DNA of 64,000 nt from Emcibacter sp. SYSU 3D8 (GTDB lineage: Bacteria; Pseudomonadota; Alphaproteobacteria; SMXS01). The translations under genes and the position numbers were made by a program. Shown piece by piece: positions 38,293 through 45,268 of the stretch (position 1 is the stretch's first letter; each line of letters opens with the position of its first letter). The stretch covers positions 868,001-932,000 of the forward strand of contig NZ_JBBYXK010000002.1 in NCBI RefSeq assembly GCF_039655875.1. The letters are read 5' to 3'. The notes under the pieces were generated by a model. The model was given only the letters and a program-made list of their open reading frames with translations. It was not told the DNA's origin and made no database searches.

Positions 38293-39000
38293 ATGCGCTT
38301 GAGAACCTCGATCGCGACCACCCTGATCGCCGCCACCATGGCGGTGGCCGCGCCGTCGACAACCGCGAATCTCGGTCCCGCCACCGCCGGAGCGGGCGTC
38401 CCACAGCACGGCAAGATCGAGTTCGCGGTGTTCCGCAAGGGCACGCAGATCGGCACCCACAAGATCGGGTTCCAGGCAAAGGGCGGCCGGTTGCAGGTCG
38501 AGGTCGACGCCGACCTGAAGGTCCAGATGCTGTTCGTGACCGTCTACCGCTATCGCCACGAGGCGACCGAACATTGGGCGGGAGACCGCATGGTCGCCTT
38601 CGAGAGCGCGACCAAGCAGAACGGCAAGCAATGGGTGGTCGATGCCCATGTGGCGGGCGAAGACAAGCTCCTGGTGAAAACCAACGACCAGCAGCGGATG
38701 CTGCCCGACACCCTGCCGCCGACCAGTTACTGGAAGCCGGACATGATGGCCACGTCGCGCTGGTTCAACACCCAGTACGGCTCGCCGATCGACGTCAATA
38801 TTGCGCCGATGGGGATCGAGCAGGTGGAATCGGTAGGGGCGACCGTCACCGCGCACCGCTACAAGGTTACCGGCGTCGTCGCCGAGACAGGCAAACCGAT
38901 CGATCTGGACCTGTGGTACGGCGAGAACGGCGAACTGGTGAAGATGCAGTTCATTGCCGTCGCCGACGGTTCGCTCATCGATTTCAGCCGCACCAGCTAG
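38293..39000 (+). CDS. Exported protein resembling DUF6134
   Basis: 235 residues with an N-terminal signal peptide (about 1-30). The mature part is rich in beta strands with segments IEFAVFRKGTQIGTHKIGF, YRYRHEATEHWAGDRMVAFES and KYKVTGV-like HRYKVTGVV followed by LDLWYGENGELVKMQF. This corresponds to the periplasmic DUF6134 family as I recall it. Function unknown. It lies between the lipid transporter operon and the photolyase operon without clear linkage to either. Confidence 0.65.
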   Translation: MRLRTSIATTLIAATMAVAAPSTTANLGPATAGAGVPQHGKIEFAVFRKGTQIGTHKIGFQAKGGRLQVEVDADLKVQMLFVTVYRYRHEATEHWAGDRMVAFESATKQNGKQWVVDAHVAGEDKLLVKTNDQQRMLPDTLPPTSYWKPDMMATSRWFNTQYGSPIDVNIAPMGIEQVESVGATVTAHRYKVTGVVAETGKPIDLDLWYGENGELVKMQFIAVADGSLIDFSRTS

Positions 39001-39018: not shown

Positions 39019-39048
39019 TGATCCGCGGCCAACCGGGCTGCGTACATG
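39019..39048 (+). promoter_or_regulatory. Candidate ECF sigma (RpoE/ChrR-type) promoter of the photolyase operon
   Basis: TGATCC (39019-39024), 18 bp, then TACATG (39043-39048). The -35 and spacing are those reported for singlet-oxygen-responsive sigma-E promoters in Rhodobacter (TGATCC-N18-TAnnTA type). The same -35 and spacing precede the rpoE-chrR genes at 45239-45268. Confidence 0.65.
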
Positions 39049-39058
39049 GTTCATGCCG

Positions 39059-40477
39059 ATGTCCTCGCCCCTCATTGTCCTGTTCCGCTCGGACCTGCGC
39101 CTCGCCGACCATCCGGCGCTCGCCATGGCGGCGCGGAGCGGCAGGCCGGTCATCCCGGTCTTCGTGTTCGACACCGGCAACCGGCATGCCATGCCGGGCG
39201 CCGCTGGCCGGTGGTGGCTGCACCACAGCCTGCAAAATCTTTCCGCGGCGCTGGAGCGCCTGGGCTCGCGGCTGATCCTGCGGCGGGGAAATGCCAGCCG
39301 CATCCTGCCCGACCTGATCCGGGAAACTGGCGCGGGCGGCGTTCTGGCAAGCCAATCCCACGAACCCCGGCAACGCGCGGTGGAGCGACTGGCGGCCAGC
39401 CGCGGCGCGGCCCTCAAGCTTTATGCCGGCAATCACCTGTTCGAGCCCGGATCCGTCGTCACCGGCGCAGGCGGCCCGTACAGGATATTCACGCCGTTTC
39501 ACAAGGCATGCCTGGCCGCCGAGCCGCCGGCACGCCCCATCGCCGCGCCCGACCGGCTGGCCACGCCGGCGGCGTGGCCGGTCAGCGAGACGCTTGAGGC
39601 GTGGGGGCTCAGGGCGCTGGATCCTGACCGGGCCGGCGGCCTGGGCCAGACCTGGCAGCCGGGCGAGACCGGGGCGACCGCCCGCCTGGAGACCTTTCTC
39701 GACAGCGCGGCCGCCGCCTATGACGGCGCGCGGGACATGCCGGCCCGCGACGGCACGTCGATGCTGTCACCGCATCTGCATTTTGGCGAGATCAGCGCGC
39801 GGCAGGTATGGGACGCGGCGATCCATCATCCCGATGCGGGCTCGGGCGGCATGGCCGCCTTCCTGCGCCAGTTGGTCTGGCGCGATTTCGCCTGCCACCT
39901 GATGCACCATTTTCCCGATATCACCCATCGGCCGCTGAGACCCGAATTCGAGGCGTTCCCGTGGGACCACGACGAGTCAGCGTTGCGGGCATGGCAGCGC
40001 GGCACGACCGGCTATCCCATCGTCGATGCCGCAATGCGGCAATTATGGCGGACCGGATGGATGCACAACCGGACCCGCATGGTCGCGGCATCCTTCCTGG
40101 TCAAGGATCTGCGCCTGGACTGGCGGCTCGGCGCCCAGTGGTTCCTTGAGACACTGGTTGACGCCGACGCCGCCAGCAATTCGTGTGGCTGGCAATGGGT
40201 TGCTGGCTGTGGTACTGATGCTGCTCCATATTTTCGGGTATTCAACCCGGCGCTGCAGGCGCGAAAGTTCGATCCTGAGGGGCGTTACGTGCGTCGCTGG
40301 ATACCGGAACTGGCCGAAGTTCCGAACCAGTATGTCGCAGCGCCCTGGACAATGACGCCCGGTTGCCGGGAAGCGATGGGTTTGAGGCTTGGGCAGTCTT
40401 ATCCGAATCGTATCGTTGACCATGCCGAGGCGCGTAAAAGGGCGCTGGCCGCGTTTGGCCGGATGACCGGCCAATGA
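39059..40477 (+). CDS. phr: Class I deoxyribodipyrimidine photolyase
   Basis: 472 residues from the ATG at 39059; an ATG at 39053 lies two codons upstream, and both fall almost at the predicted transcription start, so the mRNA is nearly leaderless. The N-terminal antenna domain begins LIVLFRSDLRLADHPAL. The FAD-binding C-terminal domain has LVWRDFACHLMHHFP, GTTGYPIVDAAMRQLWRTGWMHNR, and WQWVAGCGTDAAPYFRVFNP. It repairs cyclobutane pyrimidine dimers using blue light. First gene of a stress operon. Confidence 0.93.
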   Translation: MSSPLIVLFRSDLRLADHPALAMAARSGRPVIPVFVFDTGNRHAMPGAAGRWWLHHSLQNLSAALERLGSRLILRRGNASRILPDLIRETGAGGVLASQSHEPRQRAVERLAASRGAALKLYAGNHLFEPGSVVTGAGGPYRIFTPFHKACLAAEPPARPIAAPDRLATPAAWPVSETLEAWGLRALDPDRAGGLGQTWQPGETGATARLETFLDSAAAAYDGARDMPARDGTSMLSPHLHFGEISARQVWDAAIHHPDAGSGGMAAFLRQLVWRDFACHLMHHFPDITHRPLRPEFEAFPWDHDESALRAWQRGTTGYPIVDAAMRQLWRTGWMHNRTRMVAASFLVKDLRLDWRLGAQWFLETLVDADAASNSCGWQWVAGCGTDAAPYFRVFNPALQARKFDPEGRYVRRWIPELAEVPNQYVAAPWTMTPGCREAMGLRLGQSYPNRIVDHAEARKRALAAFGRMTGQ

Positions 40478-40495
40478 CTGTTTGAATTGAGACAT

Positions 40496-41851
40496 ATGAC
40501 AACCACGGGCCAGCTACTCAACATCATCCCTATCAAGCAGGCGTCGCCTTTGGCGCCGCAGCGCATCGCCGTGATCGGCTCCGGCGCCGCGGGCCTGGGC
40601 GCCGCGTGGGCGTTGTCGAAGCATCATCGGGTGACGCTCTACGAGGCCGACCGCAGGCTTGGCGGCCACAGCCACACCATGACGGCGCCAACCGCAGTGG
40701 GCGACGTGCCGGTCGACACCGGGTTCATCGTCTATAACGAGGTGAACTACCCGAACCTGGTCTCCATGTTCGCCCATCTGGGCGTCGAAACCTCGGGCAG
40801 CGACATGTCCTTCGCCGTGTCGATCCGCGACGGCCAGCTTGAATATTCCGGCACCGGCATGGCGGGCCTGTTCGCCCAGCGGCGCAACGTGGCACGGCCC
40901 ATGTACTGGCGCATGGTGTGGGACGTGTTGCGCTTCTACCGAGAAATGCCGCTGCTGCTGGAGCGCGAGGACCTGGAAAGCATCACCTTGGGCAAGCTGC
41001 TCGATCGCCAGGGCTATTCGAAATATTTCCGGTTCAACCATCTGTATCCGATGGCCGCCGCCATCTGGTCCATGCCGGTCCACAAGATCGAGGAATTCCC
41101 GGCGGCCACCTTCATCCGATTCTACCAGCAGCACGGCCTGCTGACCGTGACGGGCCGGCCGCGCTGGCGGACGGTCACCGGCGGTAGCCAGGCCTATGTG
41201 CGGACCATCATCGACGACTTCGGCGGCGATATCCGCTCCGGCCAGCCGGTGCGCACGGTCACGCGCGAGGCGGCGGGCGTGCGGGTCAAGACCGATGCCG
41301 ACGAGGGCGTCATCTATGACCAGGTGGTGATTGCCGCCCATGCCGACCAGGCCTATGCCATGCTTCCGGCGCCGACCGAACTGGAGCGCGCCGTGCTGGG
41401 CAAGTTCGACTATGAGAAGAACGCCGTCATTCTGCATGGGGACAGCACGCTGATGCCCCGCAGGCGGGAGGTCTGGTCGAGCTGGAACTATCTGTCGAGC
41501 GGCGCCGAGGACGTGGAAGGCAGGCTGTCGGTCACGTACTGGATGAACCGGCTGCAGGGGCTCGATGCGCGGGTGCCGCTGTTCGTCACCCTGAACCCGT
41601 TGCACCAGCCAAGCGACGACGCGGTGATCGCCCGCCTGACCTACGACCATCCGTCGTTCGACGGCAAGGCGCTGGCCGCCCAGAAGCGGCTGCCCGAGGT
41701 CCAGGGCGCCGACCGGATCTGGTATTGCGGCAGCTATTTCGGATACGGCTTCCACGAGGACGCCTTCACCTCCGGCCTCAACGTCGCACTGGCGCTTGGG
41801 GCCGAGCTGCCCTGGCTCGCCGACCGGCTTGCGGCCGCGGCGGTGGCCTGA
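40496..41851 (+). CDS. FAD-dependent amine-oxidase-like protein
   Basis: 451 residues from the ATG at 40496. The N-terminal FAD motif is RIAVIGSGAAGLGAAWALSKHHRVTLYEADRRLGGHS. Later segments include DTGFIVYNEVNYPNLVSMF, YPMAAAIWSMPVHKIEEFPAATF and a C-terminal WYCGSYFGYGFHEDAFTSGL closing the FAD site. This group of NAD/FAD proteins is regularly encoded with DUF1365 and cyclopropane synthase genes, as here, and is probably a fatty-acyl desaturase or oxidase rather than a true amine oxidase (inference). 18 bp after phr. Confidence 0.88.
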   Translation: MTTTGQLLNIIPIKQASPLAPQRIAVIGSGAAGLGAAWALSKHHRVTLYEADRRLGGHSHTMTAPTAVGDVPVDTGFIVYNEVNYPNLVSMFAHLGVETSGSDMSFAVSIRDGQLEYSGTGMAGLFAQRRNVARPMYWRMVWDVLRFYREMPLLLEREDLESITLGKLLDRQGYSKYFRFNHLYPMAAAIWSMPVHKIEEFPAATFIRFYQQHGLLTVTGRPRWRTVTGGSQAYVRTIIDDFGGDIRSGQPVRTVTREAAGVRVKTDADEGVIYDQVVIAAHADQAYAMLPAPTELERAVLGKFDYEKNAVILHGDSTLMPRRREVWSSWNYLSSGAEDVEGRLSVTYWMNRLQGLDARVPLFVTLNPLHQPSDDAVIARLTYDHPSFDGKALAAQKRLPEVQGADRIWYCGSYFGYGFHEDAFTSGLNVALALGAELPWLADRLAAAAVA

Positions 41852-41858
41852 GCCGGTC

Positions 41859-42656
41859 ATGCACTCGGCACTTTACGAAGCGACGGTAATGCACCACCGC
41901 GTGCGGCCGTTCCGTCATCGCTTCACCTACCGCGTGTTCTCCCTCCTGCTCGATCTGGACGAGATCGGCGCCCTGGGCCGCAAGCTCCGGCTGTTTTCCC
42001 ATAACAGGTTCAATCTGTTCAGTTTCCGGGACCGGGATTTCGGTGACGGCGGAGATACGCGGGCCTGGGTCGAGCGGCTGCTGACCAGCAAGGGCCACGA
42101 TTTTCCGGTGGGCCGGATCCAGCTGCTTTGTTTCCCGCGGGTGCTGGGCTACGTGTTCAATCCGTTGAGCGTCTATTACATACGCGACACGCACGGCGTG
42201 CTGCGCGCCGTGCTCTACGAGGTCACCAACACGTACAGGGACCGGCATTCCTATCTGCTGCCGGCGACCGGCGACGGCCGCATCATCCGCCAGGAATGCG
42301 ACAAGAACCTCTATGTCTCGCCGTTCATCGGCATGGACGCCCGCTATCATTTCAAGCTGTCCGAGCCGGGCGATGCGCTGGCCGTCGCCATCCGCGAGGA
42401 GACGCCGGAAGGCAGCGTGCTGTTCGCCGCCCTGTCAGGGGTGCGCAAGCCGTTAAGTGATGGCATACTGGCGCGAATGTTTATCCGGCATCCGTTGATG
42501 ACGCTCAAGGTTATCGGCGGTATCCACTGGGAGGCATTGAAGCTGTGGCGCAAGGGCGCGCGGGTGTTTCGTCATCCGGCACCGCCCGATACGGAGGTTT
42601 CAGGCGAACAGGTGGCGGGGGATACTCATGAACCACTCTATGCCGTCGGAAGGTAG
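41859..42656 (+). CDS. DUF1365 family protein
   Basis: 265 residues from the ATG at 41859. Typical segments: SALYEATVMHHRVRPFRHRFTYRVFSLLLDLDE, LLCFPRVLGYVFNPLSVYY, EVTNTYRDRHSYLLP, and KNLYVSPFIGMDARYHF. The family always travels with the FAD protein upstream and a cyclopropane-type methyltransferase downstream. It is thought to act in fatty-acid modification, but the reaction is not established. Its last 29 bases overlap the cfa start. Confidence 0.9.
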   Translation: MHSALYEATVMHHRVRPFRHRFTYRVFSLLLDLDEIGALGRKLRLFSHNRFNLFSFRDRDFGDGGDTRAWVERLLTSKGHDFPVGRIQLLCFPRVLGYVFNPLSVYYIRDTHGVLRAVLYEVTNTYRDRHSYLLPATGDGRIIRQECDKNLYVSPFIGMDARYHFKLSEPGDALAVAIREETPEGSVLFAALSGVRKPLSDGILARMFIRHPLMTLKVIGGIHWEALKLWRKGARVFRHPAPPDTEVSGEQVAGDTHEPLYAVGR

Positions 42657-43905
42657 CTCCACCGGGCGCATCGCCGCCAAGGGGCTTGGCTTGCCGCGCA
42701 CGGCGCTGGGGGGACTGGCCCGGATGATCACCCGCGCCGGCGAAGCCCAGCTCTTCGCGTTTATCGATCGTAACCTGGAAGCCGGGACGCTTACCGTGGC
42801 GGGGCCATCGGGAGAGTGCCGCACGTTCCGCGGCGCAGCGCCGGGGCCCGAGGCCGATGTGACCTTCCGCGACTGGAACGCGCTCAAGCGCCTGTTTGGC
42901 GAAGGCAGCGTGGGCTTTGCCGAATCCTATATTGCCGGCCACTGGGACACCGCGGACCTTGCGGCACTGATCGAGCTGGCGGCGCGCAACCGACTGGGTT
43001 CGCGGCGCGAGATTCAGGGCCACAAGCTGTCGCTGGCGCTGCAGCGGCTTGCCCATTCGGTGCGGCCCAATTCGCGCAAGGGCAGCCGCCGCAACATCGC
43101 CGCCCATTACGATCTGGGCAACGAGTTCTACACGTCGTGGCTCGACGACACGGTGACCTATTCGTCGGCCGTGTTCCCGACCGAGGACACGTCGCTCGAG
43201 GAAGGCCAGCGTCACAAATATCGCCGCCTGCTCGACATGATCGACCCCAAGCCGGGCGAGCGCCTGCTGGAGATCGGCTGCGGCTGGGGCGGCTTCGCAG
43301 AATTCGCGGCCCGGGAACGCGGCGTCGACGTCACCTCCATCACCATCTCGCGCGAGCAGCACCGCTATGCCAGCGAGCGCATCCAGCGCGCGGGCCTGGG
43401 CAACCAGGTCTCGGTCCAGCTCGTCGATTACCGCGACGTCCAGGGCAAGTTCGACCATCTGGCGTCGATCGAGATGTTCGAGGCGGTGGGTGAGAAATAC
43501 TGGCCGGCGTTCTTCGACAAGGTAGCGCAGACCGTGCGTCCCGGTGGCCGCGCCGCGCTGCAGGTGATCACCATTCGCGACGATGTCTACGAATCATACC
43601 GGCGCCGGCCCGATTTCATCCAGACCCACATCTTCCCGGGCGGCATGCTGCCGTCGATCAAGGTGTTCCGCGAGCAGGTCGGCCGCGCCGGCCTGAAGGT
43701 GCTGAACGAGGCGTTCTACGCCGAGCATTACGCCCGTACCCTGCGACTCTGGCGCGAGCGGTTCGAATGCGCCGCCGAAGGCCTGCGGTTCGATGGCCTT
43801 GACGACCGGTTCCGCCGGCTGTGGCGCTATTACCTGGCATATTGCGAGGGGGGATTCAGGGCCCGGACCATCGACGTCATGCAGGTTGCGCTGACGCGGG
43901 ACTAA
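42628..43905 (+). CDS. cfa: Cyclopropane-fatty-acyl-phospholipid synthase family methyltransferase
   Basis: 425 residues. An N-terminal lipid-binding region (ITRAGEAQLFAFIDRNLEAGTL) precedes the methyltransferase domain. The latter has NIAAHYDLGNEFYTSWLDDTVTYSSAVF, the SAM motif LLEIGCGWGGFAEFAA and the C-terminal DFIQTHIFPGGMLPS, all conserved in Cfa enzymes. It transfers a methylene from SAM to unsaturated acyl chains in the inner membrane, or in some relatives leads to furan fatty acids. Last gene of the operon, converging on chrR. Confidence 0.9.
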   Translation: MNHSMPSEGSSTGRIAAKGLGLPRTALGGLARMITRAGEAQLFAFIDRNLEAGTLTVAGPSGECRTFRGAAPGPEADVTFRDWNALKRLFGEGSVGFAESYIAGHWDTADLAALIELAARNRLGSRREIQGHKLSLALQRLAHSVRPNSRKGSRRNIAAHYDLGNEFYTSWLDDTVTYSSAVFPTEDTSLEEGQRHKYRRLLDMIDPKPGERLLEIGCGWGGFAEFAARERGVDVTSITISREQHRYASERIQRAGLGNQVSVQLVDYRDVQGKFDHLASIEMFEAVGEKYWPAFFDKVAQTVRPGGRAALQVITIRDDVYESYRRRPDFIQTHIFPGGMLPSIKVFREQVGRAGLKVLNEAFYAEHYARTLRLWRERFECAAEGLRFDGLDDRFRRLWRYYLAYCEGGFRARTIDVMQVALTRD

Positions 43906-43919
43906 ACACCCAGGTTGGC

Positions 43920-44570
43920 CTAGAATTTCATCCGGGGATTGATGAACCGCCCGATCAGGCCGGTGAAATGCAGTGGTGCGCTCACCACGCCCAGGCACAG
44001 GCAATCCTCGCCCCGGTCGGCGACCGGCCTGTGCCGCACCGTATCGTCGCAGATCTGCATGGCGCCGGGCCCGTAGCGGCCCGTCTCGTCGTGGAACGAG
44101 CCGGCCAGCACCACCGTCAATTCGGTTCCCTCATGGGTGTGGCGCAGCACGCCGTGGCCGCCTCTGACCTGCAGCAGCGTTGCCCGGTAGCGCCGGTCCG
44201 CAAGCGGCAGCACCGCCTCGCGCACATTCTTGCCCCATTGCTGCCAGCGCAGACCTTCAAGGCCCCGGGGCGCATAGCGCCATAACGGCGGCGGCAGCAG
44301 GCGGCGGGTTTCCTCGTCCGGTGCAGGCTCGGACAGGACCGGCCTGCCAGCGTCGTGATCCAGCCGGCCGAGAGTCGCGGCCAGCAATGACTCGGACACC
44401 GGTTCCGCGTCCGCATCGGCGAACAGCGCGCCGCCGGTCGCCTCGAGCAGCCGCATGTCGGCACGGGCGGCGGGGTCAATGGCGAGCTTGGCGGCGACGG
44501 CCAGCGCCGGACCTTCCGGCATCGCGCCGCTCGCATAATCCAGCAACAGCATGTCCAGGTCGGCGTTCAC
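43920..44570 (-). CDS. chrR: ChrR-like anti-sigma factor with cupin sensor domain
   Basis: 216 residues from a GTG that overlaps the sigma-factor stop (GTGA). The N-terminal anti-sigma helices align well with ChrR (LLLDYASGAMPEGPALAVAAKLAIDPAARADM), but the zinc ligands of the usual H and HxxxCxxC set are replaced; KLAIDPAAR stands where HLxxCxxCR is expected. The C-terminal cupin is intact, with RHTHEGTE, a later His in VRHRP and the CLC pair. ChrR holds the ECF sigma factor inactive and releases it on singlet oxygen. The pair faces the phr operon it probably controls. Confidence 0.85.
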   Translation of the reverse strand: MNADLDMLLLDYASGAMPEGPALAVAAKLAIDPAARADMRLLEATGGALFADADAEPVSESLLAATLGRLDHDAGRPVLSEPAPDEETRRLLPPPLWRYAPRGLEGLRWQQWGKNVREAVLPLADRRYRATLLQVRGGHGVLRHTHEGTELTVVLAGSFHDETGRYGPGAMQICDDTVRHRPVADRGEDCLCLGVVSAPLHFTGLIGRFINPRMKF

Positions 44571-45217
44571 GGCATGTGCTCCGCCACCATGCCGCGCAGC
44601 CGGGTAAGCGCCAGCCTGATGCGCGACTTGACGGTGCCCAGCGGCAAGCCCAGCTCGACGGAGATGACGCTGTGCGGCTTGTCCTCGAAAAATGCGAGCT
44701 GCAGTACCTGGCGCTGTTCGGCGGGCAGGCGGGCGATCGAGCCGCGCAGGTCGGCCGAGGCCTGCTCCAGCGCCAGCCGGGCGTCCGCCGGCGCCTCCGG
44801 CTCGACCGGGAAGGCGTCCAGCGGGTCGATCTCGGGCCGCACCTGCCGCCGCAGCATGTCGATACGCTTGTTGCGGGCGATGGTGAATATCCAGGTCGAC
44901 AGCGCGGCGCGGGCCGGGTCGTATTGTTCGGCCTTGTTCCAAACCGTGATCATGGCTTCCTGGACGATTTCCTCGGCGGTCTCGGGGTCGGCGCCGCCGC
45001 GCAGCATGAAGGACTTCAGCCGGGGCGCGAAATGGCTGAAAAGCGCGATGAAGGCCCCGCGATCGCGGCGGCGCGCAATGTCGGATACCAGCGCCTCGAG
45101 GCGCCTCGATTCTTCGGGGGACGTCACAACCCGTCGCTGCATGCCTCCCGCTCTTCCTGCGCGCCGCCACGATGCGGCCGCGGGCATTATGGTAGTGATC
45201 ATCGCCTGTTCTGTCAT
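44567..45217 (-). CDS. rpoE: ECF sigma factor (RpoE, ECF11-like)
   Basis: 216 residues. Region 2 includes DRGAFIALFSHFAPRLKSFMLRGG, AEEIVQEAMITVWNKAEQYDPARAALSTWIFTIARNKRID. Region 4 includes LPAEQRQVLQLAFFEDKPHSVISVELGLPLGTVKSRIRLALTRLR. The linker is long and acidic with Pro. Start at 45217 has AAGGGG; a second start at 45142 (MQRRVV) has GGAAGAG. Translationally coupled to chrR. By context it directs the photo-oxidative stress response, and a TGATCC-type promoter just upstream suggests autoregulation. Confidence 0.92.
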   Translation of the reverse strand: MTEQAMITTIMPAAASWRRAGRAGGMQRRVVTSPEESRRLEALVSDIARRRDRGAFIALFSHFAPRLKSFMLRGGADPETAEEIVQEAMITVWNKAEQYDPARAALSTWIFTIARNKRIDMLRRQVRPEIDPLDAFPVEPEAPADARLALEQASADLRGSIARLPAEQRQVLQLAFFEDKPHSVISVELGLPLGTVKSRIRLALTRLRGMVAEHMP

Positions 45218-45238: not shown

Positions 45239-45268
45239 CTCCTACGCGCGGGGTGGCCCTTCGGATCA
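45239..45268 (-). promoter_or_regulatory. Candidate autoregulated ECF promoter of rpoE-chrR
   Basis: On the minus strand, TGATCC (45268-45263), an 18-bp spacer and TAGGAG (45244-45239). The -35 and spacing are identical to the phr promoter at 39019-39048. It lies 21 bases upstream of the sigma-factor start. Confidence 0.6.

Follow-up and report, generated by a model that had tools for sequence, protein, structure and literature searches.

The closest described relative of the protein presented here is ChrR of Rhodobacter sphaeroides (PDB 2z2s, 2q1z). The zinc of its N-terminal domain is bound by His6, His31, Cys35 and Cys38, and zinc is required for the inhibition of the sigma factor by ChrR, as stated in the review PMC6852236. 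The motif of the ZAS subfamily is given as H/C-X24/25-H-X3-C-X2-C in PMC6432622. The fast oxidation of a zinc-site model is reported in the same source, where the role of zinc is called a matter under debate, and in the review PMC6852236 the part played by the N-terminal zinc in the singlet-oxygen response is called unknown. The point at issue is the site of action of singlet oxygen, which may be the thiols of the N-terminal zinc site, the cupin, or the two together.

E. coli RseA and M. tuberculosis RskA belong to other ECF groups, are controlled in other ways and are not known to carry a cupin metal sensor. Their class I anti-sigma domains have no zinc motif, according to PMC7406223, and the absence of the motif is shared by the putative class I domain of the protein studied here. 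The sigma binding of B. subtilis RsiW is independent of zinc, and the overall conformation in which SigW is held is the same when zinc is absent (PMC5358783), which would parallel the grip considered below. In contrast to the present protein, RsiW is a membrane-bound factor that has retained the zinc motif and is eliminated by proteolysis. About 72% of the soluble anti-sigma domains were reported to carry the zinc motif, with zinc and non-zinc forms mixed across the superfamily (PMC7406223). Both forms occur within the single groups AS19-1 and AS27, as they do in the ChrR family; in the cited part of PMC7406223 these two groups are named as mixed and AS11, the group of ChrR, is not. The R. capsulatus 'ChrR' (RCAP_rcc00698) is likewise a putative anti-sigma factor encoded beside a singlet-oxygen-induced rpoE, but it has 13% identity to R. 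sphaeroides ChrR and is nearer to RskA (PMC7074977), whereas the present protein is a true ChrR-family member with a cupin. Grips of this fold that need no metal have been described in other anti-sigma families, and the loss inside the ChrR family adds a variant to them. In the searched text of open-licence papers, no description was found of a ChrR-family loss of the N-terminal zinc ligands with the cupin kept.

The ChrR-family gene and its N-terminal zinc ligand positions

The gene at 43920..44570 on the minus strand of the window, i.e. of the whole analysed stretch of 64,000 nucleotides, is translated from a GTG start into a product of 216 aa. The product scored 174.9 bits with TIGR02451 (NCBIfam: ChrR family anti-sigma-E factor; cut-off 124.5), the profile match extending over 5-215 of 216. 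The best solved relative by sequence was R. sphaeroides ChrR, PDB 2z2s_B, with a phmmer E value of 2.3e-38. By its sequence, the gene is classified as one encoding a ChrR-family anti-sigma factor. A single further TIGR02451 match was detected in the same genome; it was weak and covered profile positions 125-183 only.

The N-terminal anti-sigma domain (44352..44570, minus strand; residues 1-73) contained no Cys, and its sole His, H72, is the first His of the protein. All the Cys residues of the protein are C174, C190 and C192. Residues 6-77 aligned without gaps to 2z2s_B in phmmer, and the initial annotation, which had described the N-terminal domain as alignable to Rhodobacter ChrR, was right in this respect. 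The ChrR ligands H6, H31, C35 and C38 corresponded to A3, K28, D32 and A35 of the window protein, i.e. none of the four was kept. The segment KLAIDPAAR (residues 28-36; 44463..44489, minus strand) stands in the place of HLSLCDECR of ChrR. The proposal that this segment had replaced HLxxCxxCR and that the early His was gone was thus confirmed for all four ligands. With A3, K28, D32 and A35 at the ligand positions and no Cys in the domain, the protein does not carry the ZAS zinc motif.

The cupin domain (43968..44255, minus strand; approximately residues 106-201) was recognized by Pfam Cupin_7 with 35.7 bits, above the threshold of 27. The ligands H141, H143, E147 and H177 of ChrR corresponded to H144, H146, E150 and H180, and both CLC cysteines were present as C190 and C192, in agreement with the HxHxxxE, distal His and CLC residues annotated from the sequence earlier. 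The accompanying claim that the cupin senses singlet oxygen goes back to R. sphaeroides, where the cupin is needed for this response; the two CLC cysteines are reported as unneeded in PMC6852236. The window protein and R. sphaeroides ChrR share the two domains, the cupin HHEH, the CLC cysteines, the pairing of sigma and anti-sigma genes, the type of promoter motif and the types of neighbouring genes; they differ in the four N-terminal zinc ligands, which are present in the latter and absent in the former.

The conservation of this state was determined in the family set, which consisted of the same 10 genomes as the order set. The loss of all four ligands was observed in 8/8 ChrR sequences with a readable N-terminus (L001, L003-L009); the gene of L010 starts at a contig edge without the N-terminus, and one more of the 10 genomes had no match. 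The eight members formed one clade with an SH-aLRT value of 98, and zinc-type sequences were among its neighbours in the tree. D32, A35 and R36 were invariant in all eight. The first 75 residues contained no Cys in any member and two His overall, H72 in L001 and H7 in L003, which are not shared. The mean identity among the eight was 70% in the anti-sigma domain (residues 2-60) and 65% in the cupin. The dN/dS values of seven close pairs were 0.09-0.45 for the domain and 0.21-0.31 for the cupin, both being below 0.5 in 7/7 pairs, and the value of the domain exceeded that of the cupin in 5/7 pairs. Both domains are maintained, and a tighter hold on the anti-sigma domain is not supported by dN/dS.

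The GTG start overlaps the sigma gene and an in-frame His is located upstream of it, which raises the question of whether a sequencing, assembly or start-site error masks the true N-terminus. In the column of the GTG start, Met was found in 6/7 relatives and Leu in one, and three of the seven had two additional residues before helix I. The upstream in-frame His was present in 6/8 family members, inside the sigma gene, 7 residues before residue 1 and 10 before A3. A start upstream of the GTG, although improbable, would not bring this His to the ligand position, and the two Cys positions are independent of the choice of the start. The same loss was found in 8/8 relatives from separate genomes. 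A sequence error in the N-terminal region, which the initial annotation had regarded as fatal to its reading, was rejected on the basis of this common loss, and the probability of an error of any of these kinds is practically negligible.

The sigma gene, its promoter motif and the adjacent photolyase operon

The ECF sigma factor gene, rpoE-like by its matches to Pfam Sigma70_r2 and r4 and to NCBIfam sigma-70 families, was located at 44567..45217 on the minus strand. It lies upstream of chrR and overlaps it by 4 nt (GTGA). A putative promoter motif of the sigma-E type, TGATCC-N16-CGTA, was detected ahead of the sigma gene at 45243..45268 (minus strand), and the sigma operon would be autoregulated through it. 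The form of the motif matches ChIP-seq-supported sites of P. syringae, e.g. the one ahead of PSPTO_1043 (PMC5507510).

The motif had been derived from the region preceding rpoE and was then tested on relatives. The exact motif preceded the sigma gene in 7/8 family loci, L004 being the sole exception. Across the wider set of sequences described in the next section, it was found ahead of the sigma gene in 20/38 loci of sequences with neither zinc Cys (hereafter Cys-less) and in 94/166 loci of the zinc type. The corresponding means for 400 permuted-letter motifs were 0.005 Cys-less and 0.04 zinc-type loci. The tetranucleotide CTAG is often rare in bacteria; a reversed-motif control contains CTAG and therefore flatters the motif, so that permuted motifs were used in its place and those with CTAG in the hexamer or tetramer were excluded. 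The motif was also observed on the opposite strand of the upstream stretches in 38/166 zinc-type and 3/38 Cys-less loci, and these sites may be divergent promoters, perhaps of the regulon.

The exact motif occurred twice in the window, and the 400 permuted-letter motifs occurred there 0.1 times on average with a maximum of 3. The looser form TGATCC-N18-TA was found four times against 0.64 expected. In the whole genome, 6 sites of the exact motif and 140 sites of TGATCC-N17/19-TA were counted. The genome-wide number is no evidence, since about 5 exact sites are estimated from the base composition alone; the relevant point is the location of two of these six, one next to rpoE and one next to the photolyase operon. 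The other four (G000 C1:211857, C3:414039, C5:114846 and C8:61100) are either possible regulon members or chance occurrences.

The second exact site of the window, at 39019..39044 on the plus strand, is ahead of the DNA photolyase gene (39053..40477, plus strand; Pfam DNA_photolyase and FAD_binding_7). The start of this gene was placed at the ATG that follows the motif; the ATG at 39053 is the likely start, rather than the listed TTG at 38954, since the motif is inside the listed open reading frame. The photolyase gene is followed on the same strand by a flavin amine oxidase gene of the RSP_1091 type (40487..41851; Pfam Amino_oxidase; approximate start), a DUF1365 gene (41796..42656; Pfam DUF1365; approximate start), which may correspond to RSP_1090, and a gene of a cyclopropane-fatty-acid-synthase-like methyltransferase (42628..43905; Pfam CMAS). 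The photolyase, flavin amine oxidase and CMAS genes match phrB, RSP_1091 and cfaS by Pfam type only. These three are listed as core-regulon members in PMC5507510 (Table 2). With the 4-nt overlap and the promoter motifs ahead of both rpoE and the photolyase operon, the RpoE/ChrR stress circuit looks intact, as far as can be read from the DNA.

A metal-free domain could also grip the sigma factor in a system where the cupin answers another signal, such as a ligand, a metal or peroxide, and not singlet oxygen. The Caulobacter system answers other inducers as well, according to PMC6852236, which leaves some room for this explanation; still, the cupin ligands are unchanged and the adjoining operon, which has the same promoter motif, is made up of genes of types known from the core regulon of the singlet-oxygen response, which makes a different signal rather unlikely.

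Cys-less sequences in the ChrR family

With TIGR02451 at E<=1e-15, matches were obtained in 151/385 genomes of the class and in 108/398 genomes of the phylum, the two samples overlapping. The 245 compared sequences were drawn from the class and phylum matches and from the family set, with one named locus from genome contigs in addition. L010, which has no N-terminus, and Q, a duplicate of L001, were left out, and no ChrR match was present in L002, L011, L012 and L013. Further matches, among them G059:C1, G039, G266, G253 and G120, also lie outside the 245. The division into zinc-type and Cys-less sequences rests on the two Cys columns, and the calls of the early His are approximate in gapped rows.

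The complete HHCC set was found in 181 sequences, both zinc Cys were missing in 59, and one Cys was left in 5. A survey of ChrR homologues for the same loss had been suggested in the initial annotation, and with 59/245, a proportion that describes this sample, the window protein proved not to be unique. All 64 incomplete sequences belonged to the class of the window (taken as Alphaproteobacteria), and 48/48 of the other sequences were complete. Within the sampled families of this class, 26/79 had a Cys-less sequence and seven had both kinds. The cupin HHEH was present in 247/247 aligned rows, from which the 245 result by subtracting the L001 duplicate and L010.

After removal of the ligand columns, a quick maximum-likelihood tree required at least 20 changes of the Cys state, and at least 14 when branches under 80 were collapsed and polytomies were resolved for the fewest changes. 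The number is given as a range of 14-20 due to the lower reliability of quick trees. The changes are read as losses, since the complete state is found outside the class. In family f23, a Cys-less clade of four sequences (HHSA, HHSA, HHNA and QHSV) was nested among zinc-type sequences. Tandem ChrR-family genes, two in one genome, were also encountered (L144, G332:C68).

Searches outside the genome samples were performed as well. The genome-contig collection contained one ChrR relative, of the zinc type, and no relatives were found in the searched viral contigs. The ChrR family was matched by 90 plasmid records, many of them from Rhizobium, Azospirillum, Pseudoalteromonas and Ensifer. None of the seven ChrR regions read from these 90 records was zinc-free: H-X3-C-X2-C was present in 7/7, and the early His was visible in the seven sequences, although their small alignment placed it wrongly. 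No named zinc-free member thus came to light.

A sigma gene on the same strand was found in the stretch read for 39/59 Cys-less rows, in 32 of these within 60 nt. Rows without a neighbouring sigma gene were more frequent among the Cys-less (20/59) than among the full-set sequences (12/181; Fisher p=9e-7), where some sigma genes may lie outside the stretch, which for most loci reached only about 1.2 kb upstream and 150 bases downstream. On independent tree pairs, the loss of Cys and a missing sigma gene showed no signal (6 pairs, median p 1). The loss of Cys was likewise compared with the loss of the second cupin Cys, resulting in a Fisher p of 0.053 and no signal on independent pairs. A neighbouring sigma gene together with the exact promoter motif was present at 20 Cys-less loci, which represent 8 families and 6 changes. 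In addition, a Cys-less clade of 11 sequences had no sigma gene in the stretch read (L128, L131, L211, L213, L219, L226, L227, L229, L232, L233, L234); its members may be orphan regulators, unless the sigma gene is located further away.

The more frequent absence of a neighbouring sigma gene would be expected if the sigma factor were poorly held, RpoE being largely free or otherwise controlled and the anti-sigma domain a relic. The higher dN/dS of the domain in 5/7 family pairs and the need for zinc in R. sphaeroides point in the same direction. However, the anti-sigma domain of the family is under purifying selection, with dN/dS below 0.5 in all seven pairs and 70% identity across the family, and the gene overlap and the promoter have been kept. 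A relic of this kind is considered unlikely.

The anti-sigma domain without zinc ligands and its proposed function

In the AF2 model of residues 1-75 (mean pLDDT 70.6), helices were predicted at residues 3-14, 19-31, 33-51 and 60-72. D32 stands alone between the predicted helices II and III, i.e. in this model the C35 position precedes helix III. With the domain model of residues 1-75, Foldseek gave no solved match, the best E value being 7.9. A full-length AlphaFold model from a two-row alignment had a pLDDT of 39 and was set aside.

S, D and N are classic helix-capping residues. The C35 position was occupied by one of them in 37/59 Cys-less sequences, and by majority in 17/26 families compared with a background of 16% S/D/N/T in the domain. 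The C38 position was most often A (23/59 Cys-less sequences). Helix capping together with packing may substitute for the zinc staple. On the side of the sigma factor, no convincing compensating position was detected in a per-column comparison between the partners of 168 zinc-type and 39 Cys-less sequences.

The domain could still bind a metal through other residues, such as D4, D6, E19, D32 or H72, for which the invariance of D32 in the eight family members and the acidic residues near the N-terminus might be taken as signs. Such ligands were judged very unlikely for want of Cys and His: no Cys occurs in the first 75 residues of any of the eight, the only two His are not shared, and in other Cys-less families the C35 position is often S, N, R or K.

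These sequences are most likely to be explained by a grip on the sigma factor that needs no metal, where the initial annotation had spoken of a grip that must be of this kind. Such a grip is plausible, since RseA and RskA manage without a zinc motif and no zinc is needed by RsiW to hold SigW; the zinc requirement of R. sphaeroides ChrR counts against it. We estimate the probability at roughly 70% that the product of the window gene functions as a ChrR-family anti-sigma factor whose anti-sigma domain is metal-free and whose sensor is the cupin metal site.

In unstressed cells, the four-helix N-terminal domain would bind between the sigma regions 2 and 4 of RpoE and block it. The fold of the domain would be held not by zinc but by helix packing and by the residues at the helix start, with D32 before helix III and A35 in the place of C38. 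The cupin, with its own metal site, would relay a singlet-oxygen or peroxide signal, and the freed RpoE would act on the TGATCC-N16-CGTA promoters of two operons, its own and the adjacent photolyase/fatty-acid one. The N-terminal zinc and thiols would then be unable to take part in sensing in this lineage. The ligand loss, its conservation, the gene order and the promoter motifs are directly visible in the sequences. Sigma binding, metal content, the signal, the release and the helix capping are what we infer here: the block of RpoE and the RpoE-driven transcription from homology and motifs, and the metal-free grip from sequence and conservation.

For the family as a whole, it is possible, though we hold it to be somewhat doubtful, that the N-terminal zinc serves as a structural staple open to replacement and has no part in the singlet-oxygen sensor, that lineages of the window's class have discarded it at least 14-20 times, mostly with a residue of the helix-capping type in the place of the Cys before helix III, and that the cupin metal site is the sole indispensable sensor. 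If true, the release of ChrR through zinc oxidation would not hold as a general model. The zinc-free members suggest that the need for zinc in the grip, as described for one species, is not a rule of the family. Natural zinc-free ChrR proteins encoded, in several lineages, beside a sigma gene and the promoter motif, including those of the f23 clade, offer a direct test of the question without crippling mutations. Finally, His31 was kept in 30/59 Cys-less sequences, which hints at a second role of this residue.
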